Source of the DNA: Saprospiraceae bacterium
Lineage (GTDB): Bacteria > Bacteroidota > Bacteroidia > Chitinophagales > Saprospiraceae
Length of the DNA stretch: 52,161 nt
Reading direction: 5' to 3'
Assembly (NCBI GenBank): GCA_022448955.1
Contig: JAKVCU010000059.1
Location: forward strand, 1 to 52,161
The notes beneath the pieces were generated by a model that was given only the letters and a program-made list of their open reading frames with translations, was not told the DNA's origin and ran no database searches. Position 1 is the stretch's first letter; each line of letters opens with the position of its first letter. Made by a program: the position numbers and the translations under genes. Positions 354 through 17,200 of the stretch are shown in pieces.

Positions 354-1682
354 CTAGTCTTTCAATTGTATATTTTCGACAATAAACTGGCCTACCTTAC
401 GCCCTTGGTCTACGCCATATTCAATAGCTGGTCGATAGTGAATACCTCCATATAGACGACTAATAGCAGCTTCCTCTGATGCAGCATAAAAGGAGGCAAA
501 AGAACGTGGTGGCAAACCAAATTTTACTTCCGTGCTATCAATGAAACTAAAGTCTGGACCATATAGATGAGTCAATGCAACTGCCGAAGCCGTTGAAATT
601 ACGCTATGACCACTCGTATGTTCAGGGAAAGGCGGTGTTTGTAAAAGTGGAAGCCACTCTTGATCAATATACTGATTGATCACTGTTTCTGGTCTAATCA
701 GGCTACTCCTATACTTTTCATCCCAGCAACTAATAAAAGCATCAAACAATGAAATAGAAACCATGGTATAGGCTTGAGCCGTTTCATAGATATCAGAATC
801 TTCATTGCGAGAAGCAATTTGAGTAATACCCATCCAATGCCCACCTGGAGATATCTTCTTTGTCGCGAACATAATATGCCCTTTCACATTCGAAACGAAT
901 GGATTACAGTCCCAGAACTTTGCTATTTCGATATGCTCCTCTTTTGCCTTGGCTACTGCATCATATACTTCCATCAATTCCTTATGGAATTGGCTACCTT
1001 CTTCTAAGTTAAATGTTGTAGGAGGTAAGGGCACAAATTGAGTGGCAGAGTCTAAGACTAATGGACGAATTTTATTCCAATGAGGCTCAATTCCATCCAT
1101 ATAATCTGGTGGCGTAGGTGCCCAGCGAGATGGATCTTCTGAGATGGAGTATTTTGGAAAAGAACGAGTTTGGTTATAATTATCACCATTTGCCCATTCA
1201 ATAATCGCTTTAGCCATGGTATTGCCATAGGCTATCGAGCGTTCATAAACATCTATTGGAATACCAATGGCTTTAAATTCTGCTTGTATTTCGCTTTGGA
1301 ACACCTCTAATTTAGGGATAGAAAATACGAAGTGTTTACTGGTTTCCAAGAAAGCTTGAATACTTGCAAGGCCCATCGCGTAATCTTTTCCAGCTTCTAG
1401 TTTTGGAACTTGATTTAGGTCTCTAAGTTGTCCTACTAAAGAGGTATAGTCTGTATTTTCACTTGCTAGAACTTCATAAGCAGCAATACATGGATACACA
1501 TAGTTCCTACTCGCCACTGGTGGCGAGAATATATCATGTACAATAACATCTGTAAGACGATCTACCGAACGATGCAAAAATGCTGGATGAAGTGCATCTT
1601 CTTTATAGTTGGGGTTAAGCTTTTCGCTTTGACAGCTAAAAGATATGATCGACCATATCAATACGCTCCATAATCCCTTCAT
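354..1682 (-). CDS. Vanadium-dependent haloperoxidase-like (PAP2 superfamily) lipoprotein
   Basis: This is a 442-residue exported lipoprotein with a hydrophobic signal ending at Cys17. The full vanadate/phosphate-binding triad of the PAP2/vanadium haloperoxidase superfamily is visible: Lys323 with six residues before Arg330-Pro331, the TSGH motif at 356-359, and Ser408-Arg409 followed five residues later by His415. In characterised vanadium haloperoxidases the last His ligates vanadate and the His of the (P/T)SGH motif is the acid-base. Length is in the range of single-domain bacterial members. It is the last gene of a tight operon, starting three bases after the stop of the upstream FG-GAP/ASPIC gene. 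Family assignment is firm. Whether it is a haloperoxidase or an acid phosphatase cannot be told from motifs alone. Confidence 0.88.
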   Translation of the reverse strand: MKGLWSVLIWSIISFSCQSEKLNPNYKEDALHPAFLHRSVDRLTDVIVHDIFSPPVASRNYVYPCIAAYEVLASENTDYTSLVGQLRDLNQVPKLEAGKDYAMGLASIQAFLETSKHFVFSIPKLEVFQSEIQAEFKAIGIPIDVYERSIAYGNTMAKAIIEWANGDNYNQTRSFPKYSISEDPSRWAPTPPDYMDGIEPHWNKIRPLVLDSATQFVPLPPTTFNLEEGSQFHKELMEVYDAVAKAKEEHIEIAKFWDCNPFVSNVKGHIMFATKKISPGGHWMGITQIASRNEDSDIYETAQAYTMVSISLFDAFISCWDEKYRSSLIRPETVINQYIDQEWLPLLQTPPFPEHTSGHSVISTASAVALTHLYGPDFSFIDSTEVKFGLPPRSFASFYAASEEAAISRLYGGIHYRPAIEYGVDQGRKVGQFIVENIQLKD

Positions 1683-1685
1683 AAT

Positions 1686-4600
1686 CTATTCCTTTAAAAG
1701 GTATTGAAAATCATTATTACAACGAATTAGATAACGGTTATTACCTAAAGGAAGAATACCTCTAGTATTAAGCTGTTGGGGTAATGGCAATGCTTGATAG
1801 GCTTTAAAGTTGCCTTCATTAGCATCAAAAGCATCAAATTTGCCTCCACTATTAGCTACATTTTGTCCCAATTCCGTTAAATATTCTTTGTAATTACCTA
1901 CAAATAATAATTGACCTTGTTCGTTCATCACCATACCTTGGATAGGGCTCCATTGAGCCTCATTAGGTAAGGCCTTGGCAATATATCCCTCTCCTTCTGA
2001 CAAATAAATCATGGAACGCAGCTCGTTAATTTGTTTGCGCTCAACAATTTCTTCCTTTTTCACGAGTTCTATACCCTCAATACCTGTTACTGCTGTATAC
2101 TTGGAATAATTAGTAAATTGTTTACGTACCAAGGGGACCTGAGCAGCCAATTCATCCAAAGACATAAATGGCATATTTTTAGAGAAGTAGTGATGGAATA
2201 TTAAGGGTTCCGTTTGTCCATTCTTATCGGCATCCATAATATAGAGCTGAATAGGTTTTTCAGCAGAAGCTTTCCATTTAATATTTTTACCAGCATTCCC
2301 AGCAATAATATCCAGACGGCCATCTTGATTCAAATCCTCTAATAGGATGGTATTCCAAAGTCCAGCACTATTCCCAAACCCTAGATTCTTTGATTGATAT
2401 TCCAAGTTACCGCCACCTTGATTCACTAAAACACAAATAGGCATCCAATCACCACACATGACTAGATCCAGATCATCATCACCATCGATATCTGCCCATT
2501 GGCTATCTGTAATCATTCCATAACGTTCCTTCTTTACTAGATCTAGGCCAAGGCCTTGTTTATTCTTCAAGACAAAGCTAAACGGTGAAAGGCCATAAGA
2601 GCCAGGTATAGAACGTGCTCCAATGAATAAATCCTCATATCCATCTTTATCAAAATCACCAATAGCGATAGAACTACCATTCGTATGGGGAAGCGAAATG
2701 GGTAAACGCTTTAGATTACCTTTTCCATCATTCAGATAAAGGCGATCTTCTAATGCTTTATTGAGTTCTCTTTCATCATTGCCCCCACTAACTACATACA
2801 AATCGAGATCACCATCTTTATCAAAATCAATGACTGCTGCTGCCACATCTTCATACTTGGAATCACGCTGAAAATCTTCGCTTGCCGCCTGTTCTTTAAA
2901 CTTCCCGTTTTTTTGAAGGAGGATTCTTGGTGCTTGATATCTAGCACCTCCAATGTATAAATCTTTTTGACCATCTTGATCAAAATCGGCATATAAGACA
3001 GCTGGCCCTTCTTTTGAAAGTAACTCTGGGATCAATTTATCCGCATTATAATCTTCAAATTTATTCTCTTCATGTCTAATCGGAAGAGCTGAAATTTTAG
3101 ATATATCTAAGGAAGAAGCTTGAAAAGCGTAAGGTGTTGTATTGGAAGATTTTTGAAGTTTCGTATAGGTATTAATCGCCATATTTTTTAGTACTTCCTT
3201 GCTATGGTCAGGCCAAATAATTACCGCAGAATCCACTGCTTCTTCTTTTCCTATACCGAAGAATAAGGTATGGCTACTAGAAGACTGAAAGCCCTTTGTA
3301 GTCACATAATGCTTCTTCTGTTTTTTCCCAGCATAATGAACTTCTACAATAGTTCCTTTTACACTTGGAGTACCATTTGCGGAAGCAAAAGAGAACCCTA
3401 TATAATTCCCCTTTGTGCTACTCGTATTTTCAAGTAAAGTCGCATCTGCATCAATATTATTGATAACAATATCCAGGTCGCCATCTTGATCAAAATCAGC
3501 ATAAGCTGCTCCATTAGAGAAGCTAGGTGTTCCAAATTTTGCTTTATCCATCGATGAGAACTCTAGTGCTCCATCTTGTAAAAAAAGAACGTTTGGCAAC
3601 TTCTGAGCAGGCATCAATTTTAAGAATTCATCCAACTCTGCCTGGGTAATTTCCTGATTAGGCTTATTACTTCTTTTATTGACGAAGTTGATATAATCCA
3701 AATCATTTGGACGTTTCACAATACCATTAGTGATAAAAATATCAACTTGTTCATTATTATCAAAGTCTTGTAAAAGCACTGACCAACTCCAATCTGTGGC
3801 ATAAGTATTCGTCATCAAAGCCAAATCAGAAAACTGATTGGCAGTGCGCTGAATTTGCAGATGATTACGTGCATACTGATCTTCAAAGCCAAGATCTTTT
3901 CTAATCGCAAATACTTGATCCGTATCTTCCCCACCAGATCTTAATGCCACCTCTTCATCATAAGGAAGCATATCGGTAGTGAAAATATCTTGCAAACCAT
4001 CACCATTGATATCAGCAATATCTACACTCATCGTAAACTTAGAACTATGCCCTAATAAAGAAGGCATTGATTCCGTAAAGGTCTTATCACCATTATTGAT
4101 ATAGATATAATCATTTTCATGAAAATCATTTCCCACATAAATATCAGCCCATCCATCATGGTTGATATCGACGGTCATGATTCCGAGGCCATAGCCCAAT
4201 GCACTACTATAGATACCGGCCTGAGCGGTAACATCGACAAATGTAGCTTCACTTTCGTTCAAACGATTTTCAAATAGACGATCACCAGCGAGATCATCTT
4301 TTTCTTTTCTTTTGGAGGCTTTGCCATAACTACTTACCGAGTGCACAGAGTGATTCAACAAGTACATATCTAAATCGCCATCACGATCATAATCAAAGAA
4401 TGATGCTTGGGTAGAATAGCCTGAGAAATCTAGGCCAAACTGTTGGGATGACTCTGTGAAAGTACCATCTCCTTTATTGATATAAAGCAAATTATGTGTA
4501 CCAGCTTCTGAAATCGGAGCAGCTTTACAAATGTAAATATCCAAATGACCATCACCATTGACATCATCCATACTAACGCCAGTTGACCAATTTGTCATAG

Positions 4601-4943
4601 CAGCTATACCACTGCTTGTAGTAATATCCTCAAACTGCAATCCACCTTTATTCAAATACAGCTTATCTGAAGTTTGATTTGCGCTAAGCAAAATATCCTC
4701 TAGTCCATCATTATTGACATCACCTACTGCGACACCACCACCATTGTAATAATATAGGTATTCTAAAATATTAAGCTGCAGGCTAGGACTCAGCTGGTTG
4801 TTGAAATCAAGGCCTGTTTCTGCTTTCGTCTTTTCTACAAAAACACTTGATTTAGTAATTTCTCCTGGTGTTTTTTGCTCTGCTTGACAGCCAATCAGTA
4901 AGCACAAAATAGCCAAAGCAGGATAGATATATTTAATTTGCAT
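1686..4943 (-). CDS. FG-GAP/VCBS repeat and ASPIC/UnbV domain lipoprotein (paralogue 1)
   Basis: A 1085-residue lipoprotein with lipidated Cys19 followed by an acidic stretch. Seven FG-GAP/VCBS calcium-loop motifs of the form DxDxDGxxD lie in the N-terminal half, an ASPIC/UnbV domain sits at about residues 510-585, and a second set of such motifs follows. The sixth motif (DFDNNEQVD) has lost the glycine, and the expected fourteenth near the C-terminus is degenerate (MNEQGQLLFVGN). This suggests two seven-bladed beta-propellers joined by the ASPIC domain. It is probably anchored on the outer-membrane surface. The ligand is unknown; CRTAC1-like relatives are often assigned carbohydrate or protein binding, without proof. 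It is 30 bases downstream of paralogue 2 and 3 bases upstream of the haloperoxidase-like gene, so it is co-transcribed. Confidence 0.9.
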   Translation of the reverse strand: MQIKYIYPALAILCLLIGCQAEQKTPGEITKSSVFVEKTKAETGLDFNNQLSPSLQLNILEYLYYYNGGGVAVGDVNNDGLEDILLSANQTSDKLYLNKGGLQFEDITTSSGIAAMTNWSTGVSMDDVNGDGHLDIYICKAAPISEAGTHNLLYINKGDGTFTESSQQFGLDFSGYSTQASFFDYDRDGDLDMYLLNHSVHSVSSYGKASKRKEKDDLAGDRLFENRLNESEATFVDVTAQAGIYSSALGYGLGIMTVDINHDGWADIYVGNDFHENDYIYINNGDKTFTESMPSLLGHSSKFTMSVDIADINGDGLQDIFTTDMLPYDEEVALRSGGEDTDQVFAIRKDLGFEDQYARNHLQIQRTANQFSDLALMTNTYATDWSWSVLLQDFDNNEQVDIFITNGIVKRPNDLDYINFVNKRSNKPNQEITQAELDEFLKLMPAQKLPNVLFLQDGALEFSSMDKAKFGTPSFSNGAAYADFDQDGDLDIVINNIDADATLLENTSSTKGNYIGFSFASANGTPSVKGTIVEVHYAGKKQKKHYVTTKGFQSSSSHTLFFGIGKEEAVDSAVIIWPDHSKEVLKNMAINTYTKLQKSSNTTPYAFQASSLDISKISALPIRHEENKFEDYNADKLIPELLSKEGPAVLYADFDQDGQKDLYIGGARYQAPRILLQKNGKFKEQAASEDFQRDSKYEDVAAAVIDFDKDGDLDLYVVSGGNDERELNKALEDRLYLNDGKGNLKRLPISLPHTNGSSIAIGDFDKDGYEDLFIGARSIPGSYGLSPFSFVLKNKQGLGLDLVKKERYGMITDSQWADIDGDDDLDLVMCGDWMPICVLVNQGGGNLEYQSKNLGFGNSAGLWNTILLEDLNQDGRLDIIAGNAGKNIKWKASAEKPIQLYIMDADKNGQTEPLIFHHYFSKNMPFMSLDELAAQVPLVRKQFTNYSKYTAVTGIEGIELVKKEEIVERKQINELRSMIYLSEGEGYIAKALPNEAQWSPIQGMVMNEQGQLLFVGNYKEYLTELGQNVANSGGKFDAFDANEGNFKAYQALPLPQQLNTRGILPLGNNRYLIRCNNDFQYLLKE

Positions 4944-4973
4944 ACTAGTCTGTTTATTTATGCCTTTCCTCTT

Positions 4974-7900
4974 TTAATTAAAAGAGAAAGCAGCCAAAGT
5001 ATCTCTACTTCTATTGATCAAAACCATACCATCCATTAAGATGATATCTCTTACTTCTCCCTTTACCCGAAAACCACTTTTCTCCTTAGCAAACTCAAAC
5101 TGATTATCGCCTTTATTTTCTAAATAATGTCCATAACTGGCATCATAAATCCCCATTTCAGGAACTACATAAAACAAGTTTCCACCAAGCAATACATCTT
5201 GATCACCATCCTGATCGAAATCATGTGCTTGAATAGCATAGTTAGGACTAAACTGAACTTCCTCAGGAAGCGCTACTCCTTGAAACTTAAATTGGCCCTC
5301 ATTAATCAAAAGTACTGTCTGCAATTGATTTGCTTCTAAGACATTGGCACTCGCTAGTTCCTCTTCCGTAAAAATAGCTGTGATATCAGCTTGTTTGAAG
5401 GACTTAAAGTCAGGAAAGCGTTTTTGCAGTTTCTTAATTTGATCAATCAAATTATGGCGAAGTGCGTAAGGATAATCCTTACCGTCCTCTGCTTGGAACG
5501 TCATGATCCCTTCTAACATGCCATTATTATCATAATCAGAACAGAAAAGCTTGATCGGGCGATCTGCCGATGCTTTAAAGCGGCTATTTTTACCAAGGTT
5601 GCCCACCATCATATCCAAATCACCATCCTGGTCAGCATCAAATAATTCGATAGTATTCCACCAACCTTTTAAAGGAATATTAGCAGATAAATTGGTCTTT
5701 TTTAGTAGTCCATTCTCCCCTTTAAAAATGCTCACTGCCATAAATTCACCAACAACTACCAAATCCATCTGTCCATCCTGATCTAGGTCAGCAAATTTAG
5801 CATCCGTAACCATGCCGATGTTTTCTAAGCCGGGGCATATATCAGCAGTGGCTTCGGTGAAGTTGCCTTGTCCATCGTTCAGTAAAATATAAGCAGAACA
5901 AGTGGCCCCAAAGCGGCCTACCTTGATACGCTCTCCGACAAATAAATCTTGATCGCCATCATTATCAATATCTGCATGTGCTACTGCACCGGTACTTACC
6001 TTATGCTCTTCGCTAGGCAATTTTTTATTCACAAGGCTAAAATTACCTTGTCCGTCATTTGCTAATAGATGATCATAATAGTACTCTGAGTACTCAGACA
6101 ATTCTACTCCACCACTGGCCAAATACAAGTCCAAATCACCATCATTATCCATATCAAATAATAAGGCTTGAACATGTTCAGCCTCTTTTAAACTGGCTAA
6201 ATCTTTCCCTACTTCTTTTTCATCGAACAGCCCACTTCCTTTGTTGATGAAGATATTGGCTATGCTACCCTTTGCTCCTGGAAAAATGAGGTCTTCTTGG
6301 CCATCGCCATTGATATCACCCTTAGCAGCCTGGCCACCTTCATTACTACGCATGTGATAAATCAAGCGTTCTCTATTAAAATCAGAGTAGTTATTTTCTT
6401 TTTTGGTATAGTCAAATGGTGCATCCACTTGCGTAAAAACAAGCGCCTTATCATTCGCTTTTTCGGTGTTTTCTTCTGCTTCTTGCTCCCTAAGCGTAAT
6501 CGTTTGATTGGTTGGTACAGCTTCTAGCTGACTCACCTTTCCTGATGGCCAAATAATTTTCACATCTACGCTAGTCGCATTGCCCACCCCTATATTGGGT
6601 CGAAAATCAATACTTGATTGAAAACCTCTAGTTGGAATGTTTTCATAAACAAATTGGCGATCGCCATCCGTTACTACCACTCTAGAACCAATCCCGAAGT
6701 AATTCGAACCAGAGGCCTCTAATTGCAGTTTTAAATAATTTGCAGAACTAGATTTCAAGGTGTTTTCATAGACAAAACAAGGCATATTGATATTGTTCAC
6801 CACCAAATCCATATCGCCATCATTATCTAGGTCACCATAAGCAGAGCCATTAGAGAAACTAGGCTCTTGCAATCCACTTTCGTTAAATGGCTTAAATTCA
6901 AGGCCATCCATATTTTTAAAAGCATGATTTTCTACCTTGTTAGAAGGGATGATATCCACTAATTCTTTATAATTCACGCCATCATCTTGGATAATGGACT
7001 TCATTACAGCCTCATTAGAAATATACTGTAAATAATCTTGATCAGTGAGGTCTTTATAAATACCATTCGCTACGAATAGATCTTTATAACCATCGTTATC
7101 CATATCAAAGAATAAGGCTCCCCAGCTCCAATCTGTTGCCTCTACCCCAGCCAAACGCGATACTTCACTAAAGGTATCATCTCCATTGTTGCGGTGTAGG
7201 ACATTACGCGTAAACTGATGGTGATAACCATTTTTGACATTGTATTGGTATTTATTCCAAGTTTCGAAGGTAGTAACTGACTTTAAGCGTTCATAATCAG
7301 AAGGAAGCATTTCTGTAACAAATAAATCTGGATTACCATCATTATTGATATCTGCGGCATCTGCCCCCATTGATGCACCACTGATCGAAGTCATTTGATT
7401 GGTCAAGTCTTCTTCGAAAGTACCATCTTGTTGATTAAGGTAGAGGTAATCTCGCTCAAAAAAGTCATTGGAAATGAAAATATCTAACCAAGAATCATTA
7501 TTGAAATCACTTACCGTTACACCCAGTCCAAAACCGATGACACTTCCATAAATACCAGCCTGTTCGCTTACATCTACAAATTGGCCATCGCGGTTTTCCA
7601 TTAGTTTATCACCACCTAATTCATCTCTTTTTGGTCGTTCGTTTTTACGTAAGTTAAAACTCCCAATGGCTTGGTAAGAGTTATTCAGAATGTACACATC
7701 TAAATCGCCATCTTTATCATAATCAAAAAAAGCGGCATGTGTAGAGAAGCCTTTATCATTTAGGTTGTATTTGGCGGCAGCTTCTTCGAATTGAACACCA
7801 TTTACTTCACTCCCTTTATTGATAAAAAGCTCATTTTCTTTATTATCCCCTTTGATATCGCCTGAGTTACAAACATAAATATCCAACCAGCCATCATTAT

Positions 7901-8285
7901 TAATATCAACGAAAGTAACACCTGTTGACCATGCCTTCTGACCGCTTACGCCTGCTTGCTCAGTGATATCTTCGAAGGTCAAGTTTCCTTTATTTAGGTA
8001 TAGCTTATTAGAAGATTGATTAGAAACCATATAGATATCAATGAGTCCATCATTATTGATATCACCTAGTGCTACGCCACCACCATTATAGAAGTTTCTG
8101 TATTTATATACATTAAAATCCATGGTAGACACTAAGTCATTAGAGAAGTTAACTCCTATTTTTTCATTATCTAACAAACGAAACAATGGGCTACCTTCAT
8201 TGCTTGGCTCTTGTTCGTTATTGCAAGAAATTAAGGCAATACCTAGGAGTAAGGTGCCTAGATACTGAATAATATGTTTCATCAA
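4974..8285 (-). CDS. FG-GAP/VCBS repeat and ASPIC/UnbV domain lipoprotein (paralogue 2)
   Basis: A 1103-residue lipoprotein with Cys21 following a hydrophobic signal. I count fourteen DxDxDG-type loops: seven before and seven after an ASPIC/UnbV domain at about residues 515-590. The last loop (DFDQDGDQD) lies close to the C-terminus, so the second propeller appears complete, unlike paralogue 1. The thirteenth loop ends in Glu rather than Asp, as it does in paralogue 3. The N-terminal segment around YRNFYNGGGVALGDI is almost the same as in paralogue 3, so 2 and 3 are closer to each other than to 1. It is second in the operon, 10 bases after the small lipoprotein gene. Function is unknown beyond probable calcium-stabilised surface binding. 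Confidence 0.9.
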   Translation of the reverse strand: MMKHIIQYLGTLLLGIALISCNNEQEPSNEGSPLFRLLDNEKIGVNFSNDLVSTMDFNVYKYRNFYNGGGVALGDINNDGLIDIYMVSNQSSNKLYLNKGNLTFEDITEQAGVSGQKAWSTGVTFVDINNDGWLDIYVCNSGDIKGDNKENELFINKGSEVNGVQFEEAAAKYNLNDKGFSTHAAFFDYDKDGDLDVYILNNSYQAIGSFNLRKNERPKRDELGGDKLMENRDGQFVDVSEQAGIYGSVIGFGLGVTVSDFNNDSWLDIFISNDFFERDYLYLNQQDGTFEEDLTNQMTSISGASMGADAADINNDGNPDLFVTEMLPSDYERLKSVTTFETWNKYQYNVKNGYHHQFTRNVLHRNNGDDTFSEVSRLAGVEATDWSWGALFFDMDNDGYKDLFVANGIYKDLTDQDYLQYISNEAVMKSIIQDDGVNYKELVDIIPSNKVENHAFKNMDGLEFKPFNESGLQEPSFSNGSAYGDLDNDGDMDLVVNNINMPCFVYENTLKSSSANYLKLQLEASGSNYFGIGSRVVVTDGDRQFVYENIPTRGFQSSIDFRPNIGVGNATSVDVKIIWPSGKVSQLEAVPTNQTITLREQEAEENTEKANDKALVFTQVDAPFDYTKKENNYSDFNRERLIYHMRSNEGGQAAKGDINGDGQEDLIFPGAKGSIANIFINKGSGLFDEKEVGKDLASLKEAEHVQALLFDMDNDGDLDLYLASGGVELSEYSEYYYDHLLANDGQGNFSLVNKKLPSEEHKVSTGAVAHADIDNDGDQDLFVGERIKVGRFGATCSAYILLNDGQGNFTEATADICPGLENIGMVTDAKFADLDQDGQMDLVVVGEFMAVSIFKGENGLLKKTNLSANIPLKGWWNTIELFDADQDGDLDMMVGNLGKNSRFKASADRPIKLFCSDYDNNGMLEGIMTFQAEDGKDYPYALRHNLIDQIKKLQKRFPDFKSFKQADITAIFTEEELASANVLEANQLQTVLLINEGQFKFQGVALPEEVQFSPNYAIQAHDFDQDGDQDVLLGGNLFYVVPEMGIYDASYGHYLENKGDNQFEFAKEKSGFRVKGEVRDIILMDGMVLINRSRDTLAAFSFN

Positions 8286-8295
8286 GATTGTTGTT

Positions 8296-8880
8296 TTATT
8301 TATTTAACAAATCGGAATGTCTCAAATCTGTAATTTTCGCCATTACATCTTTATCCCCCAATGGATACATAACGATCTGGCGATTTCCATCTACTTTAGC
8401 AAATGCTTTCGTTTGTTCATTAATATCAATTTCCAAAAAGTCATTACCAGGATAAGCTTGGGAGAAATGTATTTTTAATGCCTCCATTAGTTGATCTGAC
8501 TGATAGATTTCATTCCAAGGAGACCATTTGATGTAATTCATTTTCATTTCCATACCGTGCATAATCTTGTCTTCATCAAAGATACCGTAAAAGAGCATTT
8601 CTACTTTTTCTGAATTTTGAGAGGTAGAATCAAGGGTTAGAATATATTTGGCGTATTTATTCCCGGGTCCCTGGGCTACCAGTTTTTGTTTATTCAATTG
8701 CCAACAATGATCATAAAATTCTTTCCGAGTTTGGCCCATTTTCAATCCCAAGATCAAATCTTCATGAATAACCCCAGATTTGATTTCTTCTTTTACGATT
8801 TGTGAGTACTCTGATTCACAAGCACTAGCTCCTAAACATAAAATTAATAAAAAGAAAATCTGCTTTACCACTACTTCCAT
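8296..8880 (-). CDS. Uncharacterised small lipoprotein
   Basis: A 194-residue protein with a hydrophobic signal and lipobox ending GASAC at Cys21, followed by ESE, compatible with export to the outer membrane. I recognise no domain. It has a segment LGLKMGQTRKEFYDHCW that resembles the opening of small conserved lipoproteins with a beta-rich fold, but this is only an impression. It is the first gene of the four-gene operon with the two FG-GAP/ASPIC genes and the haloperoxidase-like gene. The start used is the ATG; a GTG three codons in would give a shorter n-region. Being first in the operon suggests a dedicated accessory role for the downstream proteins. Confidence 0.72.
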   Translation of the reverse strand: MEVVVKQIFFLLILCLGASACESEYSQIVKEEIKSGVIHEDLILGLKMGQTRKEFYDHCWQLNKQKLVAQGPGNKYAKYILTLDSTSQNSEKVEMLFYGIFDEDKIMHGMEMKMNYIKWSPWNEIYQSDQLMEALKIHFSQAYPGNDFLEIDINEQTKAFAKVDGNRQIVMYPLGDKDVMAKITDLRHSDLLNK

Positions 8881-9257
8881 AATTCTAAGATTTTTTAATT
8901 ATTTCTATGGTTTTATGTTATACGTTAATAAATTTTAAGCGAATGTTTAAATTTTATTCAAACTGATAACCAGCGATTTGCGTCTACCTGCCCGTAAAGG
9001 TAGGGTTTTGGCTAAGGCTATGTGATGGAACTTAGCGAGCTAAGTAACTGATCCAATCAGACGCCATAATTTTCAAAACATTGGTTTTTAGGCAATAGAA
9101 AATTTAAACAGACTCGAAGTAAGCACAAAAAATTATATGGCTTTCTCTTTTTTTACCAAAATATTGAGAACCATTAGACTAATAGAAAAGTCGGAGCCTC
9201 CATTTGGTGAAATATTAAAAGAAATGCGTTCACATAATGGCTCTATAACCTAATGGA
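8881..9257. other. Intergenic region splitting the FG-GAP/ASPIC locus
   Basis: This 377-base gap separates the downstream four-gene operon from the third FG-GAP/ASPIC gene. It holds the right copy of the 127-base inverted repeat. About 30 bases beyond the repeat, at 9100-9115, a short copy of the repeat's AT-rich terminal motif AAAATTTAAACA appears again, in the opposite orientation. I see no open frame. The promoter of the four-gene operon should lie here, but I find no clear TAnnTTTG element close to 8880. Confidence 0.55.
8944..9070 (-). repeat. 127-base dispersed repeat, right copy of an inverted pair
   Basis: It is the reverse complement of 4-130 with about 17 substitutions and no gaps. 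The dyad at 9031-9044 has arms CTTAGC/GCTAAG. Relative to the left copy both outer bases changed together, which keeps the pairing. The two copies bracket exactly the four-gene minus-strand operon (354-8880). Confidence 0.85.
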
Positions 9258-12200
9258 TTAGTAGCTGTAAACTTGAATAGATTGGCCTACAACCCCAATC
9301 ATCACTTTATTATTTTGTAATAATTCGAAATCTCTAATTTGTCCATCAATATTCAAGGCACTTGCATTATCATATTGAATGTCTCCTCCTTTTTTGCCTC
9401 CGATTAACAGCCAGCCTTTAGAAGCGTCTTCTCTACCAAACTGTGGCTTGGTCAAATAGTGATTTCCTCCAATTAATAGGTCAAGTGTGCCATCTTTGTC
9501 AAAATCATTTGCTGTAACTGCATGTACGGATGAGAACTGTACCTCCACAGGCAAAGGCTGTCGTTCAAACTGACCATTTTTCTGAAAGTATAGTTGACTT
9601 TCCACCACATCTAAATTCAAAACAAGACTCTCTTCTAAAGTATTTGCATCGAATAGCTGTTCCATAGTTGCTTCCGCAAAATCTTTATAATAGACATATT
9701 TCCGTTTTAAGATGGGTAGTTGAGACATTAGCTCATCTTTATCTAAAGAAGGATAAATCTTTTTATCTACCTGCTCAGCAAGTATTTGTTCTACACTTCC
9801 ATTTTTATCAAAATCATTTATATAGAGCAAATGATTCTTACGAATAGCACTGTTGCTCCCTATATTGCCCACAAAAATATCAGCTTGTCCATCCTGATTA
9901 AAGTCTTCTACCAATAAAGTATTCCAAATACCCTTCGTTTTGGCAAAAGCGTTTTCTTCTTTTTCAAAGCGCCCATTCTTATTCATAAAAATGGTGATTG
10001 GCATCCACTCTCCAACGACGATTAAATCCAATAAGCCATCTTGATTGACATCTAACCATTGGGCGTCTGTTATTATTCCCAATTCTTTAAATTCAGGAAT
10101 CTCTATCGATTCAAAATTTTGTTGTCCCTTATTCCTAAATAGGTATGCAGAGCCTGGCAAGCCGTAGGCTTTGTTACTATTGCGTTCCCCTACGAATACA
10201 TCTTCCAAGCCATCTTGATCAAAATCTGCAATAGCAACCGCACCAGTTGCGACCGCTTGAGGAAATTTAAAGGCCTCCTTATTTTTTGTCCATTGCCCGT
10301 CTCCTTCATTGACGTATAAGACATCATGCAATTCTGAGGCAAATGGGGAAAAAGCAGTACCCCCATGTGCAACATAAAGATCTTTATCACCATCATTATC
10401 AGAATCAAAAAAGACAGCATCTACAACTTCAGATCGTTTATCTTCCTCAAAGAACTCCATTTTATGGAATGCTCCATCTTCTTTAGAAATCAAAAGACTA
10501 GAAGAAAAACCTTTTGCTCCTCCTACAAATATATCCTCTACTCCATCCTGATTAAGGTCTGATAGAGCGATTACGGGTCCATCTACAGTATTCATTTTCA
10601 TTAGTAGGCGTTCTCTGTTGAACTGATTAAAACGGAGTAGTTGATGTTCAATGCCTAGATCATAGGAGCCAGTAAAAAAGGAAGCTTTCTCATCTGCAAT
10701 GGCATTAGAAGAAGGGATAAATGGAGAAGAATGATCTGATGGTGCGAAAGTCCATTCCTTATTGACTTTGAGGTTGGTATGTATATCGTAATACCCATTC
10801 GGCCAGATAATTTTTAGACTATCAACAGAGGTGCAATTCCCCAGTCCAAAGAGTAAGTGATTAGAAATACTAGACTGAAAACCACGAGAAGGATAATTCT
10901 CCGCCATAAAGTTTTGCCCACAAGCGTAAACAACCACTTTTGCACCAATAGCTTTTGTATTTTTCTGCTTTCCCTGTAGCTTGATCTTGAGGTAATTGTA
11001 TCCAGAACGTTCAGAAGTGTTTTCATAAATAAAACTTGGCATATTAACATTGTTGAACACCAAGTCTAGATCACCATCATTATCCAAATCACCATAGGCA
11101 CAACCGTTACTAAAACTTTTCTGATCTAATCCCCACTCATCTGCATAATTTTCAAAATTAAAATCTCCGAAGTTTTTAAATGCAAAATTGGCTACTGCTT
11201 GAGAGGGCATAGCATCAATTAGCTTAGTAATGGCGTTCGTACTACCTTTTGCTAAATCATTTTTAATACTAGCATCATCTGCTATGAAAGCCAAGTAATC
11301 ACGATCTAATAAATCTTTATAAATACCATTTGCAACAATTATATCCTTCAAACCATCATTATCAAAATCTTGCATTAAAGAAGACCAGCTCCAGTTGGTT
11401 GCTTCTACCCCCGCCTTTCTCCCAACTTCCAAAAAACCAGCATTGCCCATATTTCTTTGCAGCATATTACGCGGCAACTGATGATAATAACCATTCGAAA
11501 CAGCGAGAGAATACTTTTTCCAAGATTCATACAATGCCTTTGTTTTTTTGCGTTTCACTGTGTGTGGCAACATTTCTGTGATCATCAAATCAGGCATTAA
11601 ATCATTATCCAAGTCTGCTACATCTGCCCCCATTGATCCCCATGGGTAACATTCAAAATACTCCTCTCCTTGCTCTGTAAAGGTTTTATCTTGATTGTTT
11701 AAATACAGATAATCTTTTTCAAAGAAGTCATTAGAAATGTATATATCCGTCCACCCATCCAGATCAAAATCACTCAGAGTAATTCCAAGGCCATATCCAA
11801 TAGCGCTACTAAAAATACCTACCTCTTCAGTGACATCCACAAATTTACCATCCTGATTTTCAAAAAATTTATTGCCATTTTCACTCGGTGTATTACGCTG
11901 CTCAGGAATTAAATCAAATCCCCCTACAGAACGAAGGGAGTTATTCAATAAGTAACAATCTAGATCCCCATCACGATCATAGTCAAAAAAAGCAGATTGG
12001 ATAGATAAGCCGGTAATATTTAATCCATATTCAGCAGATTTTTCCTCAAATTGAGGAATACCATTTTCATCCAGTTGCCCTGTATGGATAAACAACTCAT
12101 TATATCGCTGATCTCCTCCTGGTTTGCCGGCTTTACACACGTATAAATCTAACCAACCATCACCATTAATATCTACAAAGTTTGCGCCTGAAGACCATAC

Positions 12201-12521
12201 GCCAGAACAGGCTAATCTAGTAATAGAAGTTACATCTTCAAAATTCCAATTACCTCTATTCAAAAACATCTTATTATCGACGATATTTCCTGTGAAATAG
12301 ACGTCAATCAGTCCATCATTATTGATATCCCCTAAAGCGACACCCCCACCATTATAGAAATTCCGATAAAGGTATGGATTAAAATCTTCCGTATACTCTA
12401 ATGTATTATTAAACGGAGCAGTATCCTCACTTTTTAGTACAAATAGATGTTTTTCCTCATTACAAGCGAACAAATTCAACGCCAATAAAAAGGCTAAAAA
12501 TCGAGAACATTTAAGAAACAT
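9258..12521 (-). CDS. FG-GAP/VCBS repeat and ASPIC/UnbV domain lipoprotein (paralogue 3)
   Basis: A 1087-residue lipoprotein with Cys20 followed by NEEK, an acidic post-cysteine stretch of the kind linked to surface display in Bacteroidota. Fourteen FG-GAP/VCBS-type loops are visible: seven N-terminal, an ASPIC/UnbV domain at about 507-580, and seven C-terminal. The fifth loop (DLDNDLMPD) lacks the usual Gly. It lies 80 bases downstream of SusD, separated by a hairpin, so it is probably expressed with the SusC/SusD pair at a reduced level. Its context suggests it works as a third surface lipoprotein of the SusC complex. The substrate is unknown. Confidence 0.9.
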   Translation of the reverse strand: MFLKCSRFLAFLLALNLFACNEEKHLFVLKSEDTAPFNNTLEYTEDFNPYLYRNFYNGGGVALGDINNDGLIDVYFTGNIVDNKMFLNRGNWNFEDVTSITRLACSGVWSSGANFVDINGDGWLDLYVCKAGKPGGDQRYNELFIHTGQLDENGIPQFEEKSAEYGLNITGLSIQSAFFDYDRDGDLDCYLLNNSLRSVGGFDLIPEQRNTPSENGNKFFENQDGKFVDVTEEVGIFSSAIGYGLGITLSDFDLDGWTDIYISNDFFEKDYLYLNNQDKTFTEQGEEYFECYPWGSMGADVADLDNDLMPDLMITEMLPHTVKRKKTKALYESWKKYSLAVSNGYYHQLPRNMLQRNMGNAGFLEVGRKAGVEATNWSWSSLMQDFDNDGLKDIIVANGIYKDLLDRDYLAFIADDASIKNDLAKGSTNAITKLIDAMPSQAVANFAFKNFGDFNFENYADEWGLDQKSFSNGCAYGDLDNDGDLDLVFNNVNMPSFIYENTSERSGYNYLKIKLQGKQKNTKAIGAKVVVYACGQNFMAENYPSRGFQSSISNHLLFGLGNCTSVDSLKIIWPNGYYDIHTNLKVNKEWTFAPSDHSSPFIPSSNAIADEKASFFTGSYDLGIEHQLLRFNQFNRERLLMKMNTVDGPVIALSDLNQDGVEDIFVGGAKGFSSSLLISKEDGAFHKMEFFEEDKRSEVVDAVFFDSDNDGDKDLYVAHGGTAFSPFASELHDVLYVNEGDGQWTKNKEAFKFPQAVATGAVAIADFDQDGLEDVFVGERNSNKAYGLPGSAYLFRNKGQQNFESIEIPEFKELGIITDAQWLDVNQDGLLDLIVVGEWMPITIFMNKNGRFEKEENAFAKTKGIWNTLLVEDFNQDGQADIFVGNIGSNSAIRKNHLLYINDFDKNGSVEQILAEQVDKKIYPSLDKDELMSQLPILKRKYVYYKDFAEATMEQLFDANTLEESLVLNLDVVESQLYFQKNGQFERQPLPVEVQFSSVHAVTANDFDKDGTLDLLIGGNHYLTKPQFGREDASKGWLLIGGKKGGDIQYDNASALNIDGQIRDFELLQNNKVMIGVVGQSIQVYSY

Positions 12522-12549
12522 GTGGTACGCAAGTTGATTTAAAGAAGAA

Positions 12550-12577
12550 GGGTCGCCTCCCGTAAAGAAAGCGACCC
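12550..12577 (-). terminator. Intercistronic hairpin after susD
   Basis: Perfect seven-base arms GGGTCGC/GCGACCC enclose a 14-base loop between the susD stop and the next gene's start. In the transcribed (minus) direction it is followed by a pyrimidine-rich stretch TTCTTCTTT, not a clean U-run. It may act as a partial terminator or as a 3' stabiliser giving more SusC/SusD than FG-GAP/ASPIC protein. Confidence 0.6.
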
Positions 12578-12601
12578 CTAAAGTTATTATTTTATATAGT
12601 A

Positions 12602-14203
12602 TTAATAACCATCATTTTGTGTAAGTGTACCACCACTAGCTTGAAGTTGCTCAAACGGAATAGGGAATACATTTACGTGATCAGATGGGTCAGCTGGCTT
12701 TTCCCACCAAGCATCATTGTATTTGCCAAAGCGGATTAAGTCCATACGACGTACACCTTCTTGGAACATTTCGCGGCCTCTTTCTGCTAAGAACTCATCT
12801 GCATCAATTGTGCTGTAGCTATTTACTTTAGCTCTTGCTCTAAGAACGTTTACATCATCCAATGAAACGTTCCAATCACCAGCAGCTCTTGCTCTCGCTT
12901 CACCACGCATTAGGTAAACTTCACCTAAACGAACGATTGGGTAGTCATTATCCATATCTGGACGACCGAACTGCTTAAAGCTAAACTTACCTGGACGAGC
13001 ACCAGCCTCACGTAGAGAGTTTGGTGTCAATTCATTGATAGCAGGGGTATAGTTTAATACTAATTCACCATCATCAGATGCATAATCAAGGATTGCAGAA
13101 CCACCGAAATCAAGCTGTTGCCCTACAATGAAGCTAGCTTCTTTACGCGCATCACCATTTTCAAAAGAATTATAGAATTCTTCCAAAGTAGCATAACCAT
13201 TCCATGGCTGAGCATCAAAATTCCAAGTAAATTGGCTAGAGTAGTGGAGATTCATCTGACTGAAGTTCATACCACCAGCAGATGCCTCATCGTACAATAC
13301 CGAGAAAATGTGCTCTGGGTTGTTTTCGTTATTGGATGCGAAAACAGCAGCAAAGCCACTAAGTTCATCTGGATCACTAGCTACACCAGCTCTTTTACCT
13401 TGGTTAGCAACCTTGCATCCATCACCACAAAGTTGATAGACACCTCTGTCAATGATGTAAGATGCTGCATCAGCAGCTTCCTGCCATCTTGCAGTACCTG
13501 TGTAAACCTCTGCATTCAGATATAGCTTAGCTATGATACCCAATGTTCCAAACTGGTTCATTGCATAAGGATTGGGATCTGTACCTAAGGCACTACCTGA
13601 TAAATCCATTGAAGAAGAAATCTCAGAAACACCTAGAGCATCCAATAACTCAGATTCAACGAATGCAAATACTTCAGCACGAGAAGCCTGTGGAGCATCT
13701 TGACCAGGAGAAGTAATAATTTTTACTCTACCATAAAGGTCAAGAAGACGGAAGTAATAATAAGCACGAAGGGACCTAGCCTGAGCAGTTTGATTGGCAT
13801 CCAAATTATCACCATTTAGTAATTCATTAACCGTGTTAATAGCATTGTATGTTTGTACCCAAGTACCATTTACAAATGCATGTGTTGCATCGTAAGTATG
13901 ACGATGAAGATCAATCAAGATACCACCATCAAACCAGTCACCACCTTTTGCACAGATTACCATTTCATCTGTAGGAAGCTCTTGTACAGAATAATATCCA
14001 CCATGGTTAGCAGTACCTGCTCCTCTTAGAGAAGCGTAAGCAGCGCTTAATGGCCCAGCAGAACCACCACCACCACCTGTGTCGATACCTTCAATATTAA
14101 TATCCTCTGTTACGTCACCTACCAAATCTTCTTCAAGATCTGTACAGGCTTGAACAGCAAAAATTGCTACTAAAGCAAATAAAAATTTTAAAAATTTACT
14201 CAT
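12602..14203 (-). CDS. SusD/RagB family nutrient-binding outer-membrane lipoprotein
   Basis: A 533-residue SusD-type lipoprotein with lipidation at Cys20 (VQAC), then an acidic linker and a pentaglycine stretch at about residues 43-48. The helical TPR-like region with ARSLRAYYYFRLLDLYG, typical of SusD/RagB, and the C-terminal block with FPIPFEQL and the closing LTQNDGY are all present. SusD proteins cap the SusC barrel and bind substrate at the cell surface. It sits 21 bases after its SusC partner, the standard gene order. No glycan-specific gene lies next to it, so the substrate cannot be inferred from neighbours. Confidence 0.95.
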   Translation of the reverse strand: MSKFLKFLFALVAIFAVQACTDLEEDLVGDVTEDINIEGIDTGGGGGSAGPLSAAYASLRGAGTANHGGYYSVQELPTDEMVICAKGGDWFDGGILIDLHRHTYDATHAFVNGTWVQTYNAINTVNELLNGDNLDANQTAQARSLRAYYYFRLLDLYGRVKIITSPGQDAPQASRAEVFAFVESELLDALGVSEISSSMDLSGSALGTDPNPYAMNQFGTLGIIAKLYLNAEVYTGTARWQEAADAASYIIDRGVYQLCGDGCKVANQGKRAGVASDPDELSGFAAVFASNNENNPEHIFSVLYDEASAGGMNFSQMNLHYSSQFTWNFDAQPWNGYATLEEFYNSFENGDARKEASFIVGQQLDFGGSAILDYASDDGELVLNYTPAINELTPNSLREAGARPGKFSFKQFGRPDMDNDYPIVRLGEVYLMRGEARARAAGDWNVSLDDVNVLRARAKVNSYSTIDADEFLAERGREMFQEGVRRMDLIRFGKYNDAWWEKPADPSDHVNVFPIPFEQLQASGGTLTQNDGY

Positions 14204-14224
14204 GACTATATGTTTTAATAATCA

Positions 14225-17200
14225 TTAAAAGTTTAAGTTAACACCCAATGCAAATACTCTAGAATTGAAGTAGTTATTTCTTCTTTCAATACCTGGAGAT
14301 AATACATCACTAGCAATCGTGGTGTTACCATTACCTGCAGAACCTCTGTCCACTAAACTAGGCTCTGGATCAATACCACTATAGTTAGTAATAACGAATG
14401 CATTACGTATCATTAAAGATACTTGAATTGAACGAATTGCAGCGTCATTTAAGTTGAATTGTCTAGAAATAGTCAAATTGTCCAACTTGAAGAAATCTGC
14501 CTTCTCTACATAAAGCGAGCTGAAACGTGCAGTAGTCAATCCATCCACTGCGTTTTCAGTATTCACGAAGTTGTAAGATGTCTGAGTAGACAATCTTGGC
14601 TCGTAGAATGCACGGAATGTATTCACTAGGCTATGGCCGAATGCCCCTCTAAAGAACGCATTAATTGACCAATCACCAATTTGGATTTGGTTAGTCCAAC
14701 CTAATTCTAAATCCGGAACACCATTACCTAGTACTTCAAAGTCAGCATCTGGATTCAAGGCTTGATCTTGTCCTGTAACTAACTGACCATCACCATTGAT
14801 ATCAGCAAAAATAGGAGAACCATCTTCAACACCTTCGTAAACTGGCCCCCAAATGTTACCTATTTCTTGACCAACTTGAACTAGAAGCATGTTCGTACCG
14901 TTCTGACCAGGAGCACCTAGGTTACCTCTGGTTTCTGCGTCAAGTACATATTCTTCCAATACCGTTTCGTAAGTAGAAAGCACAACACCTGTTGTGTAAT
15001 TGAAGTTTTCACTACGTACAACATCATAGTTAAGTGCTAATTCTAAACCTTGTGTATTGAGCTTACCTGCATTTTCGAATCTTCTGTCAACACCGAAAAC
15101 GGCAACGTCAACTGTTCTTTCTAAGATAAAGTCAGAAATATCTCTGTTATATAAGTCTAAAGTAGTAGAGAATCTTCCCATACTGAATTCAAGACCAAAG
15201 TTTAATTCTGCCTTTTCTTCCCATTTTAAATCAGGGTTGGCAGCACGCGCAAGCGTTGTATTAACAGCACCTGAAGGGTCGTTTGATATTGATCTAATTT
15301 CTTGTGATAAACCAGACTGTTGAGGAAGTGCACCTGTTACACCATAACCCACTCTAACTTTCAATAAATCAACACTGCCGATATTCAAGTATCTGTTTAA
15401 GTCAACACCTACACCAAATGCTGGGAAGATACCCCACTGATTACCTTCACCTAACTTAGATGAACCTTCACGACGAACAGAAGCGTTCAAGAAGATCGCA
15501 TTATCGAATGTGAAGTTAGCACGTCCGAAGAAGGCAATGATTTTGTTATTTGGAGATCTGTTACTACTTGCATTAATGAAACCAGCATTTTGTAAATCCT
15601 GAGAACTTTCAATCAAGTTGCTGAAATCAAGAGAATTGTCAGGGAAATCACCGATGCTAAAGAATCTATCATTAAAATTATCTTCTTGGTAAGAATAACC
15701 TGCTGTAATAGTAAGATCAGATTTACCAAAGCTAGTTAAGTAAGTAGCAAAACCTTCGTATAGGCTAAATGTTGCATTAGACTCGTAAAATTCTGCTAAA
15801 CCTTTTCTGGTTGGAGAAGTAGCATTTCCTCTAAAGTTAGCTGTTGTAGGAGCATACTGGTCATTAGAGAAATCAGTGCTCTGTTGAGCGATTCTCATTG
15901 TCACAGATAAGTTAGAAAGAATATCATAAGACAAGTTCGCACTGTAGTTAAACTCTGATCTTTCAGCTACGTTTCTGTTTTGATCAACAATTGATACCGG
16001 GTTGAAGCTATCGAAAAGACCCAATGTTTCAAAGAATCCACCAAACTGACTACTGTTGAATTCGAAAGGAGAATTTGCACCTAAAACGGGAGCAGTTGGG
16101 TTATACAATACCGCATATCTTAATGCTTCATCATAACCAATACGTTGATCTTTCGTTGTGTAAGAAGAACTGAAATCGATTTTCAGCTTATCGTTGAATA
16201 CTCTAGAAGAGAAGTTCAAACGAGCGTTAAACTGATCGAAGCCAGTGTTTCTCATAATACCGTTTTGCTCTCTGATATTAACAGAAGCACGGAAATTAGA
16301 GTTAGCGCCTACTCCACCACCAACGGATAAACCATGTGTATGGTTGATTGGATTTTCAGTTACTTCGTCAATCCAGTCCGTACGGCTACCCAAATCTGTA
16401 CCACCTGCAGCTACGAATTCATTTCCATCCAGGATCTCAATGCTGTTAAGGATAGACTCTGTAGAAACCTGCCCGTTGTAAGACCACTGTAGTTTCTGAG
16501 AAGCTTTACCCTTCTTAGTAGTAACAATGATTACACCTGAAGAACCACGAGAACCGTAAATCGCCGCAGCAGAACCATCTTTAAGTACGCTGATCGTTTC
16601 GATATCATTAGGGTCAACATTCTGTAAAGAAGCCCCAATAACACCATCGATCACGACTAATGGTTGAACGTTAGCACCTACAGTAGATAGACCTCTCAAA
16701 CGAATCACAGACTGATTGTTTGGGTTTCCACCTCTGTTGTAAACTTGCAAACCAGCTACCTTACCTTGAAGAAGCTGTGCAGGATCAGAAATTACTCCTT
16801 GGTTGAAGTCCTTCTCAGATACTTCGACTACAGAAGAAGTGATCTCTTTTTCCTTTTGTGTTCCGTAACCTGTTACGACAACCTCGTCCAAGTCTGTACC
16901 AGCACTCATCTGTACATCGATGACGTTAGAAACGCCAATGTCTTGAGTGGTTGTTGCATAACCTGTGTAAGAAAATTGAATTTGAGCTGCGCCATCTGGC
17001 ACATTTAGTGAGAATTTACCATCAAGATCGGTAACTGTACCAGTAGAAGTACCTAACACGGCTACCGAAGCTCCGATTAAAGGCTCGTTGGTCTCTGCAT
17101 CGGTAACCGTACCTGTTACGGTACGCTGCGCCATTGCAAAAGTCCCCATTGCTACAAAAAGTAGTAACAATGCATACTTTAAGTCGACTTTAAGTTTCAT
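14225..17200 (-). CDS. SusC/RagA family TonB-linked outer-membrane receptor
   Basis: A 991-residue TonB-dependent transporter. Order: signal peptide (about 1-24), carboxypeptidase-regulatory-like beta-sandwich (about 25-110), the SusC signature DEVVVTGYGTQ, plug domain (about 115-230, including VVIDGVIG and SVLKDGSAAAIYGSRG), then a beta-barrel. The C-terminus ends in an aromatic residue (NLNF), as expected for an outer-membrane barrel. Its partner SusD follows at once. Transport would be powered by TonB-ExbBD; an ExbB/ExbD cluster lies about 5 kb away. The upstream region is rich in dyad symmetry, but no sigma/anti-sigma pair or hybrid two-component gene is adjacent. Confidence 0.95.
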   Translation of the reverse strand: MKLKVDLKYALLLLFVAMGTFAMAQRTVTGTVTDAETNEPLIGASVAVLGTSTGTVTDLDGKFSLNVPDGAAQIQFSYTGYATTTQDIGVSNVIDVQMSAGTDLDEVVVTGYGTQKEKEITSSVVEVSEKDFNQGVISDPAQLLQGKVAGLQVYNRGGNPNNQSVIRLRGLSTVGANVQPLVVIDGVIGASLQNVDPNDIETISVLKDGSAAAIYGSRGSSGVIIVTTKKGKASQKLQWSYNGQVSTESILNSIEILDGNEFVAAGGTDLGSRTDWIDEVTENPINHTHGLSVGGGVGANSNFRASVNIREQNGIMRNTGFDQFNARLNFSSRVFNDKLKIDFSSSYTTKDQRIGYDEALRYAVLYNPTAPVLGANSPFEFNSSQFGGFFETLGLFDSFNPVSIVDQNRNVAERSEFNYSANLSYDILSNLSVTMRIAQQSTDFSNDQYAPTTANFRGNATSPTRKGLAEFYESNATFSLYEGFATYLTSFGKSDLTITAGYSYQEDNFNDRFFSIGDFPDNSLDFSNLIESSQDLQNAGFINASSNRSPNNKIIAFFGRANFTFDNAIFLNASVRREGSSKLGEGNQWGIFPAFGVGVDLNRYLNIGSVDLLKVRVGYGVTGALPQQSGLSQEIRSISNDPSGAVNTTLARAANPDLKWEEKAELNFGLEFSMGRFSTTLDLYNRDISDFILERTVDVAVFGVDRRFENAGKLNTQGLELALNYDVVRSENFNYTTGVVLSTYETVLEEYVLDAETRGNLGAPGQNGTNMLLVQVGQEIGNIWGPVYEGVEDGSPIFADINGDGQLVTGQDQALNPDADFEVLGNGVPDLELGWTNQIQIGDWSINAFFRGAFGHSLVNTFRAFYEPRLSTQTSYNFVNTENAVDGLTTARFSSLYVEKADFFKLDNLTISRQFNLNDAAIRSIQVSLMIRNAFVITNYSGIDPEPSLVDRGSAGNGNTTIASDVLSPGIERRNNYFNSRVFALGVNLNF

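Follow-up and report, generated by a model that had tools for sequence, protein, structure and literature searches.

A SusC/SusD locus with CRTAC1-like double-propeller lipoproteins, a conserved small lipoprotein and a vanadium iodoperoxidase-like enzyme in a Saprospiraceae bacterium

The described systems closest to the locus reported here are the classical Sus or polysaccharide utilization loci (PULs), such as FjDexUL of Flavobacterium johnsoniae, a branched-dextran locus to which FjGH65A and a GH97 enzyme belong according to the accessible part of PMC10316084; the vanadium iodoperoxidase of Zobellia galactanivorans (PDB 4CIT and 4USZ, the latter named an iodoperoxidase in PMC5064120); the marine flavobacterium Arenibacter sp. 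C-21, whose proposed haloperoxidase-driven iodine uptake is linked to H2O2, needs glucose, oxygen and calcium, and is accompanied by five or more PAP2 homologues of 4USZ (PMC5064120); and the CRTAC1/ASPIC-UnbV proteins (PDB 9ETN). Here we analyze an operon in the genome of a Saprospiraceae bacterium (assembly GCA_022448955.1; 6.4 Mb, 230 contigs), contained in a stretch of 52,161 nucleotides, hereafter the window, that starts at base 1 of contig JAKVCU010000059.1 (C186 in our numbering). Seven co-directional genes on the minus strand, running from window position 17200 to 354, follow one another in the order SusC-SusD-FG-A-SML-FG-B-FG-C-VHPO, where FG stands for the FG-GAP/ASPIC lipoproteins, SML for a conserved small lipoprotein and VHPO for a vanadium haloperoxidase:

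14225..17200, minus strand: TonB-dependent outer-membrane transporter of the SusC type, with which the operon begins (TIGR04056, above cut-off at 600 bits; PDB SusC homologue 8aa4, 2.3e-83)
12602..14203, minus strand: SusD lid lipoprotein (PF07980, over cut-off; PDB SusD-family matches 3jys and 3ck7)
9258..12521, minus strand: FG-A, FG-GAP/ASPIC lipoprotein (PF13517, PF07593; CRTAC1 9etn by sequence, E 3.8e-5)
8296..8880, minus strand: SML, conserved small lipoprotein (unmatched by Pfam and NCBIfam families at E 0.001)
4974..8285, minus strand: FG-B, FG-GAP/ASPIC double-propeller lipoprotein (PF13517, PF07593; TTG as first start, with an ATG after it)
1686..4943, minus strand: FG-C, FG-GAP/ASPIC lipoprotein (PF13517, PF07593; CRTAC1 and integrin alpha-V by sequence)
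354..1682, minus strand: VHPO, vanadium iodoperoxidase-like lipoprotein, last visible gene (PF01569, 39.6 bits; PDB 4cit/4usz)

The locus shares with FjDexUL, as far as the accessible text of PMC10316084 goes, the SusC/SusD pair that serves as a PUL criterion, and some of its relatives also carry a GH65 of the FjGH65A kind or a GH97. It differs in that FG-GAP/ASPIC proteins and SML stand in place of SusE/F, that some relatives have LacI where a classical locus has SusR, that a VHPO is added, and that no glycanase is visible in the window operon. The Arenibacter C-21 work, for its part, describes no locus, and the Zobellia enzyme is compared here as a protein alone, whereas the VHPO gene of the window is tied to a SusCD-FG-SML operon. 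Among the matches listed, a search of the open-access literature found no description of a VHPO paired with SusCD and FG genes. Every part except SML comes from a known family and, to our knowledge, the combination is undescribed.

The first-pass annotation had counted eight consecutive minus-strand genes between 354 and 17200; the co-directional operon is there, but it contains seven genes when open reading frames of at least 100 aa are counted, the only other such frame in this interval being a plus-strand one inside SusD. From SusC to VHPO, the intergenic gaps measure 21, 80, 377, 10, 30 and 3 bp. Reading of the translations revealed an N-terminal hydrophobic stretch and a lipidation-type Cys with an acidic residue close behind in all the operon proteins except SusC. 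A simple lipobox pattern matched four of the six lipoprotein candidates, missing VHPO and SusD, and across all loci matched 96 of 147 VHPO, 86 of 155 FG and 36 of 50 SML frames, counts in which duplicate loci, and frames whose starts are truncated or too long, are included. The lipidation Cys is invariant in 7 of 7 aligned SML sequences, and that of VHPO (C17) in 15 of 15 aligned homologues. Because the contig ends 353 bp past the VHPO stop codon, the downstream end of the operon is hidden.

In each of FG-A, FG-B and FG-C, FG-GAP_3 stretches number seven or eight and UnbV_ASPIC occurs once, both families scoring over cut-off. FG-B, the single FG protein modeled, gave an AlphaFold2 model (32 aligned rows) with a predicted local distance difference test score (pLDDT) of 89 and a predicted template modeling score of 0.89, in which two propellers are formed. 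The N-terminal half, including the ASPIC domain, aligned with mouse CRTAC1 (9etn; Z 40.1, root mean square deviation 2.6, 458 residues aligned, 22% identity), and the C-terminal half is a second propeller (LGI1 EPTP, Z 30.8). FG-B thus has the N-terminal propeller and ASPIC domain of the CRTAC1/ASPIC-UnbV proteins, and differs from them by the second, C-terminal propeller and a lipid anchor; the shared fold is no proof of what the FG proteins do. No SusE/F domain was matched by Pfam at E 0.001 in FG-A, FG-B, FG-C or SML. SML was modeled with a pLDDT of 86; its best structural candidates (Foldseek E 9.3e-3, and a VIA Z of 6.3 to DUF4309) were judged not to be a clear match in the PDB.

SML was detected in 42 of the 120 genomes sampled from the window's family and in 22 of 296 genomes taken from across the phylum, 3 of these 22 belonging to that same family. 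Regions were fetched around 40 of 63 distinct SML places which, together with the window and five named loci, made up a set of 46 SML loci. An FG gene of more than 500 aa was in view in all 46, and two or more of them in 39; SusD was in view in 35, several loci being cut by contig ends. SusCD-FG-SML-FG cores were present in six family-level groups (f1, f5, f8, f21, f23 and f37). The SusCD-FG-SML core is conserved beyond the window genome, and represents a kind of SusCD locus based on double-propeller proteins of the CRTAC1 type together with a small lipoprotein outside known families. The surface system proposed in the first-pass annotation is accordingly not a peculiarity of one genome, as both the core and its linkage to VHPO were found in others.

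VHPO was in view in 19 of the 46 SML loci, in variable positions. It lies in line after FG-C in three loci of the same family (L153, L159, L162), in one of f5 (L167), in three of f8 (L168-L170) and in the named loci L035, L088 and L094, and also in L034, with SML out of view; the FG-C to VHPO gap is 3 bp in the window and L034, 6 in L094, 12 in L088, 22 in L167 and longer elsewhere. In four loci (L052, L109, L150, L158) VHPO lies on the far side of a LacI gene that diverges from SusC; in L149 VHPO itself is directly divergent from SusC, and in L157 it is downstream of GH65 and GH13. In genome G164 a gap of 5 bp separates VHPO from the FG gene before it, with the core's SusD lying further on, and in the named loci L056, L067 and L081 VHPO precedes a SusC-SusD-FG set, with SML out of view. 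On the other side, seven of the 14 SML genomes outside the family that gave no VHPO match were fetched, revealing FG-SML-FG in 7 of 7 and SusC plus SusD in 6 of 7. As SML cores occur in genomes without a VHPO match, VHPO is to be taken as an accessory of the core.

Among the matches listed in the family sample, VHPO was located within 20 kb of 10 of 44 SML places, where 0.57 would be expected (leaving out the window, 9 of 43), and one of 150 ASPIC places within 10 kb of 14 of 149 VHPO places, where 0.70 would be expected, so that the linkage observed was about 17-20 times an expectation that assumes mean genome sizes. VHPO homologues at E <= 1e-20 were present in 100 of the 120 family genomes, namely in 42 of 42 with SML versus 58 of 78 without it (p 8e-5), a comparison of lists made by eye in which genome size may be a confounder. 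Outside the family, VHPO was matched at E 1e-20 in 5 of 19 SML genomes (3 of 9 genera), in all 5 within 12 kb of SML. In a tree of 93 VHPOs built by a quick method, the window enzyme grouped with those of L034 and L035 (SH-like approximate likelihood ratio test, 99), and FG linkage required at least 10 changes among the scorable rows (39 FG-linked within 8 kb and 16 unlinked, with 38 unscored), gain and loss being indistinguishable.

These data bear on whether VHPO, FG and SusCD genes, all common in these genomes, merely sit together in labile islands of surface genes and share no function, an explanation that we consider improbable. Up to 29 ASPIC matches per genome and the repeated changes of linkage speak for it; other VHPOs repeatedly have genes for an amino-acid permease or a peptidase as neighbors, and a retropepsin/PDZ gene adjoins VHPO or SusC depending on the locus, so that the spot itself is shared. 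The excess over expectation, the 5 of 5 linked genomes from three genera outside the family, and the in-line gaps of 3-12 bp between FG-C and VHPO in four loci argue against it.

The VHPO protein matched the Zobellia galactanivorans vanadium-dependent haloperoxidase (4cit/4usz) with 525.8 bits and E 9.5e-157 over residues 9-439, near its full length, and the two are of the same length class; NapH1, with 18 bits, was the sole other solved structure matching at E <= 0.01. Residues K323, R330, S357-G358-H359, R409 and H415 are invariant in 15 of 15 aligned homologues (the window and named loci) and are the same letters in 4cit, a set which we take to be the vanadate-site pattern of fungal chloroperoxidase (VCPO). 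The haloperoxidase reading of the first-pass annotation thus gains support from a solved iodoperoxidase, and the enzyme probably oxidizes iodide, judging from this homology.

The active-site residues of VHPOs are common to PAP2 phosphatases, and the PF01569 match by itself does not tell the two activities apart. The same annotation had considered that the enzyme might act as a PAP2 phosphatase, freeing phosphate from organic esters close to the importer. Apart from membership of the superfamily we found nothing positive for this; the near full-length iodoperoxidase homology, with no other solved match above 20 bits at E 0.01, and the lack of any phosphate regulator or transporter named among the Pfam-scanned neighbor clusters make it the least probable of the explanations weighed here. 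Uptake of phosphate or of halogenated organics was also discarded as the principal explanation, since none of the recurrent neighbor clusters c0-c20 (one Pfam-scanned representative each; c20 gave no family) was named as a phosphate regulator or transporter or as a dehalogenase, although halogenated organics are a possible ligand.

Neighbor clusters were built from 121 loci, two of them present twice, and one representative per cluster was read with Pfam. Clusters of sugar type, ordered by the number of loci, were GH65 (13), LacI (11), SSF (9), GH37 trehalase (6), GH13 (4), GH97 (4) and MFS (4). In the two closest relatives, GH65 directly follows VHPO (L034, as a 217-aa fragment at the contig end, and L035). 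The GH65 proteins of L074 and L035 matched FjGH65A (7fe3) with 802 and 812 bits. FjGH65A is an alpha-1,2-glucosidase for which W391, E392 and T407 (subsite +1) and the acid E472 are named in the accessible part of PMC8626586. The L035 protein keeps the equivalents of these four residues and of E616 if the numbering of the paper is shifted by 3 residues against that of the chain, a shift chosen as the sole fitting one. For E616, we assume the role of catalytic base. L088 and L094 have the order FG-SML-FG-FG-VHPO followed, after a GH97 in L094 alone, by a pair of MFS transporters and a trehalase. The SSF cluster adjoining several VHPOs was considered as a candidate sodium/iodide symporter and discarded, its L107 member scoring 787 bits against vSGLT and 89 against the iodide symporter. 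Near single loci of f8 and f23 we also observed a xylose-isomerase-like TIM barrel (L168, L174), a GFO/IDH oxidoreductase (L174) and a 3-keto-disaccharide hydrolase (L171).

From the lack of glycan enzymes and sensors, the first-pass annotation had excluded a standard polysaccharide locus. That exclusion is not supported, as the contig stops 353 bp after VHPO, and some relatives carry GH65, GH97, GH13, trehalase, sugar transporters or LacI in or beside the locus.

The gene order described above is established; the activities and the ligand discussed from here on are inferred. The best reading, which we hold tentatively and at somewhat less than an even chance, is an alpha-glucoside-type uptake locus with an attached surface iodoperoxidase. 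SusC/SusD is the TonB-dependent outer-membrane importer, as homology shows. SML and the CRTAC1-like lipoproteins, two or three in number and equipped with a second propeller, may fill the SusE/F-type surface-binding place, as suggested by their position, signal peptides and fold, with the FG propellers presumably capturing and holding the ligand. This ligand could be an alpha-glucoside or a sugar of alpha-glucan type, to which the GH65, GH97, GH13, trehalase, Na+/sugar symporter and LacI genes of some relatives point. The lipid-anchored VHPO, often added to the set, would oxidize iodide, and perhaps also bromide, with ambient or algal H2O2 and so form hypohalous acid on the cell surface, by analogy with its solved relative; its most likely use would be to remove H2O2 and to fend off algal defense or competitors during feeding. 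Outside support for such a role is thin: in Zobellia, vIPO3 was up on Ascophyllum versus alginate, and a dehalogenase was also up on Ascophyllum (accessible part of PMC9296495), and in Arenibacter C-21 iodine uptake depends on glucose, oxygen and calcium and goes with several 4USZ homologues, as noted above. The locus might bear on marine iodine cycling and on bacterial resistance to algal oxidative defense; VHPO homologues are widespread in the family, and an operon with an importer and, in some relatives, alpha-glucosidases offers a concrete, testable setting for their role.

Several results weigh against the alpha-glucoside reading. In the window itself, the Pfam scan found no carbohydrate-active enzyme among the eight genes at 354-18922, with the contig ending 353 bp downstream of VHPO. 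Elsewhere in the same genome, the one GH65 match (a 774-aa frame on contig C188) is away from the operon, which indicates that the GH65 of L034 and L035 was lost here or lies in an assembly gap; the one strong trehalase (C77) is unlinked to the operon, and GH97 gave no match. The glucosidases differ among relatives and name no single ligand. Outside the family, VHPO went unmatched at E 1e-20 in 14 of 19 SML genomes, and a single genus accounts for three of the remaining five. Of 32 VHPOs with 8 kb available on both sides, 16 had FG and 11 had one of four glucosidase clusters, just 3 having both, and 37 of the 80 named VHPO loci had neither FG nor a sugar partner in view, many contigs being short. 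Compared with 35 random windows of 19.9 kb from six contigs, 16 of them from one genome, in which neither feature was present, FG was found in 26 of the 80 named VHPO loci (p 2e-5) and any of the four glucosidase clusters in 20 (p 3e-4), which speaks for the reading; the excess of glucosidase clusters in SML loci was modest (6 of 46; p 0.03); the glucosidase profiles were built from the tested loci themselves, and the p-values lean favorably. LacI, in 8 of 46 SML loci versus 2 of the 35 control windows, was less specific.

Neighbors of VHPO unrelated to sugars count in the same direction: an amino-acid permease cluster is as frequent as GH65 (13 loci), clusters of a DASS-type symporter and of an M20 peptidase recur in nine loci each, and because of them our confidence in the alpha-glucoside reading is slightly reduced. 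The three clusters were present in 0 of the 40 fetched SML regions. They make up a second VHPO context, in which a DASS symporter, amino-acid permease and/or M20 peptidase comes just after VHPO (L059, L075, L078, L084, L089, L096 and contig C221 of the own genome, L129); it is mostly devoid of FG, with L059 and L096 carrying FG upstream.

Rather than protecting a feeding cell, VHPO could itself perform the capture step, its hypohalous acid opening or halogenating a recalcitrant surface ligand (a phenolic, humic or glycoconjugate one) that the propellers hold and SusCD imports. This is the foremost of the alternatives, and even so unlikely. The in-line position of VHPO in several families, the repeated changes in linkage, and the lipoprotein-like character of VHPO, SusD and FG alike are compatible with it. 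Yet most of the sampled SML genomes outside the family have no VHPO match at E 1e-20, 16 of 32 scorable VHPOs lack an FG within 8 kb, and no enzyme that might handle the product is constant among the loci.

It is slightly less probable still that VHPO makes HOI or I2 at the surface for the FG/SusCD set to retain or import as iodine species, as in the uptake of Arenibacter C-21. The accumulation of iodine by that strain with glucose, oxygen and calcium, its 4USZ homologues, and the FG-GAP repeats, described as calcium-binding in the accessible part of PMC2668756, would fit such a function; the SML cores in genomes without VHPO and the sugar type of the L107 symporter do not. At a similarly low level of probability we place a circuit joining feeding to halogenation, in which SusCD-FG would import alpha-glucosides, periplasmic glucosidases and trehalase would free glucose, a glucose-oxidizing enzyme encoded elsewhere would yield H2O2, and VHPO would convert this H2O2 to HOI, to capture iodine or to serve as a chemical weapon. 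If true, this circuit would for the first time place the iodine uptake of Arenibacter C-21, with its dependence on glucose, oxygen and calcium, in a genetic frame.

Two further features of the window accompany the operon:

17645..18922, plus strand: retropepsin-like and PDZ protein, divergent from SusC (PF13650 and PDZ)
1..139, no strand assigned: dispersed intergenic repeat at the contig end, with a second copy at 8944-9071 between FG-A and SML

No linked regulator was found by the Pfam scan among the eight genes at 354-18922. The same retropepsin/PDZ cluster was present in 17 of the 121 clustered loci, the window and 16 others (e.g., L161, L154, L040 and L046). In some loci its gene is divergent from SusC and in others from VHPO, which looks as though the cassette of the core had been inserted or lost between them; its product, a recurrent neighbor of the core or VHPO, is probably not a working part. 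At 27971-30657 the window contains OstA/LptA-like and TPR-SH3 genes, whose homologues lie near retropepsin/PDZ and VHPO in L039, L046 and L084, which suggests that the VHPO site is old and syntenic.

The two copies of the repeat in the window are 87% alike, the inner one lying in the 377-bp gap downstream of FG-A. With a length of about 139 bp, the repeat gave at least 40 genomic matches, counting the query itself (of 122 candidates, 40 were scored). On contig C221, a second VHPO with 59% identity to that of the operon adjoins genes for a DASS symporter and an amino-acid permease; this contig, too, terminates in a copy of the repeat, with a 37-bp overlap at 97%. With some 40 or more copies of the repeat in the genome, an adjacency of C186 and C221 as VHPO-repeat-VHPO is no more than plausible. 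GH65 is followed by a second VHPO in L035, so that the own genome may have a VHPO tandem without GH65.

Contigs C215 (L130) and C112 (L132) of the own genome each hold another locus of SusC-SusD type, after which come ASPIC proteins of smaller size; C215 also has a weak VHPO-like match inside a 748-aa frame. In L164, L165, L182 and L184, a cluster of proteins of about 650 aa lies inside or beside the SML-FG cassette, the L165 member having a CHU_C tail (type IX secretion) and DUF6923. In L103, DUF1501, NHL-repeat and DUF2231/planctomycete-cytochrome proteins, identified by Pfam, precede VHPO and SusC; L099 and L108 appear to be arranged likewise by gene lengths alone, the three layouts coming from uncultured Bacteroidetes and Flavobacteriaceae records.

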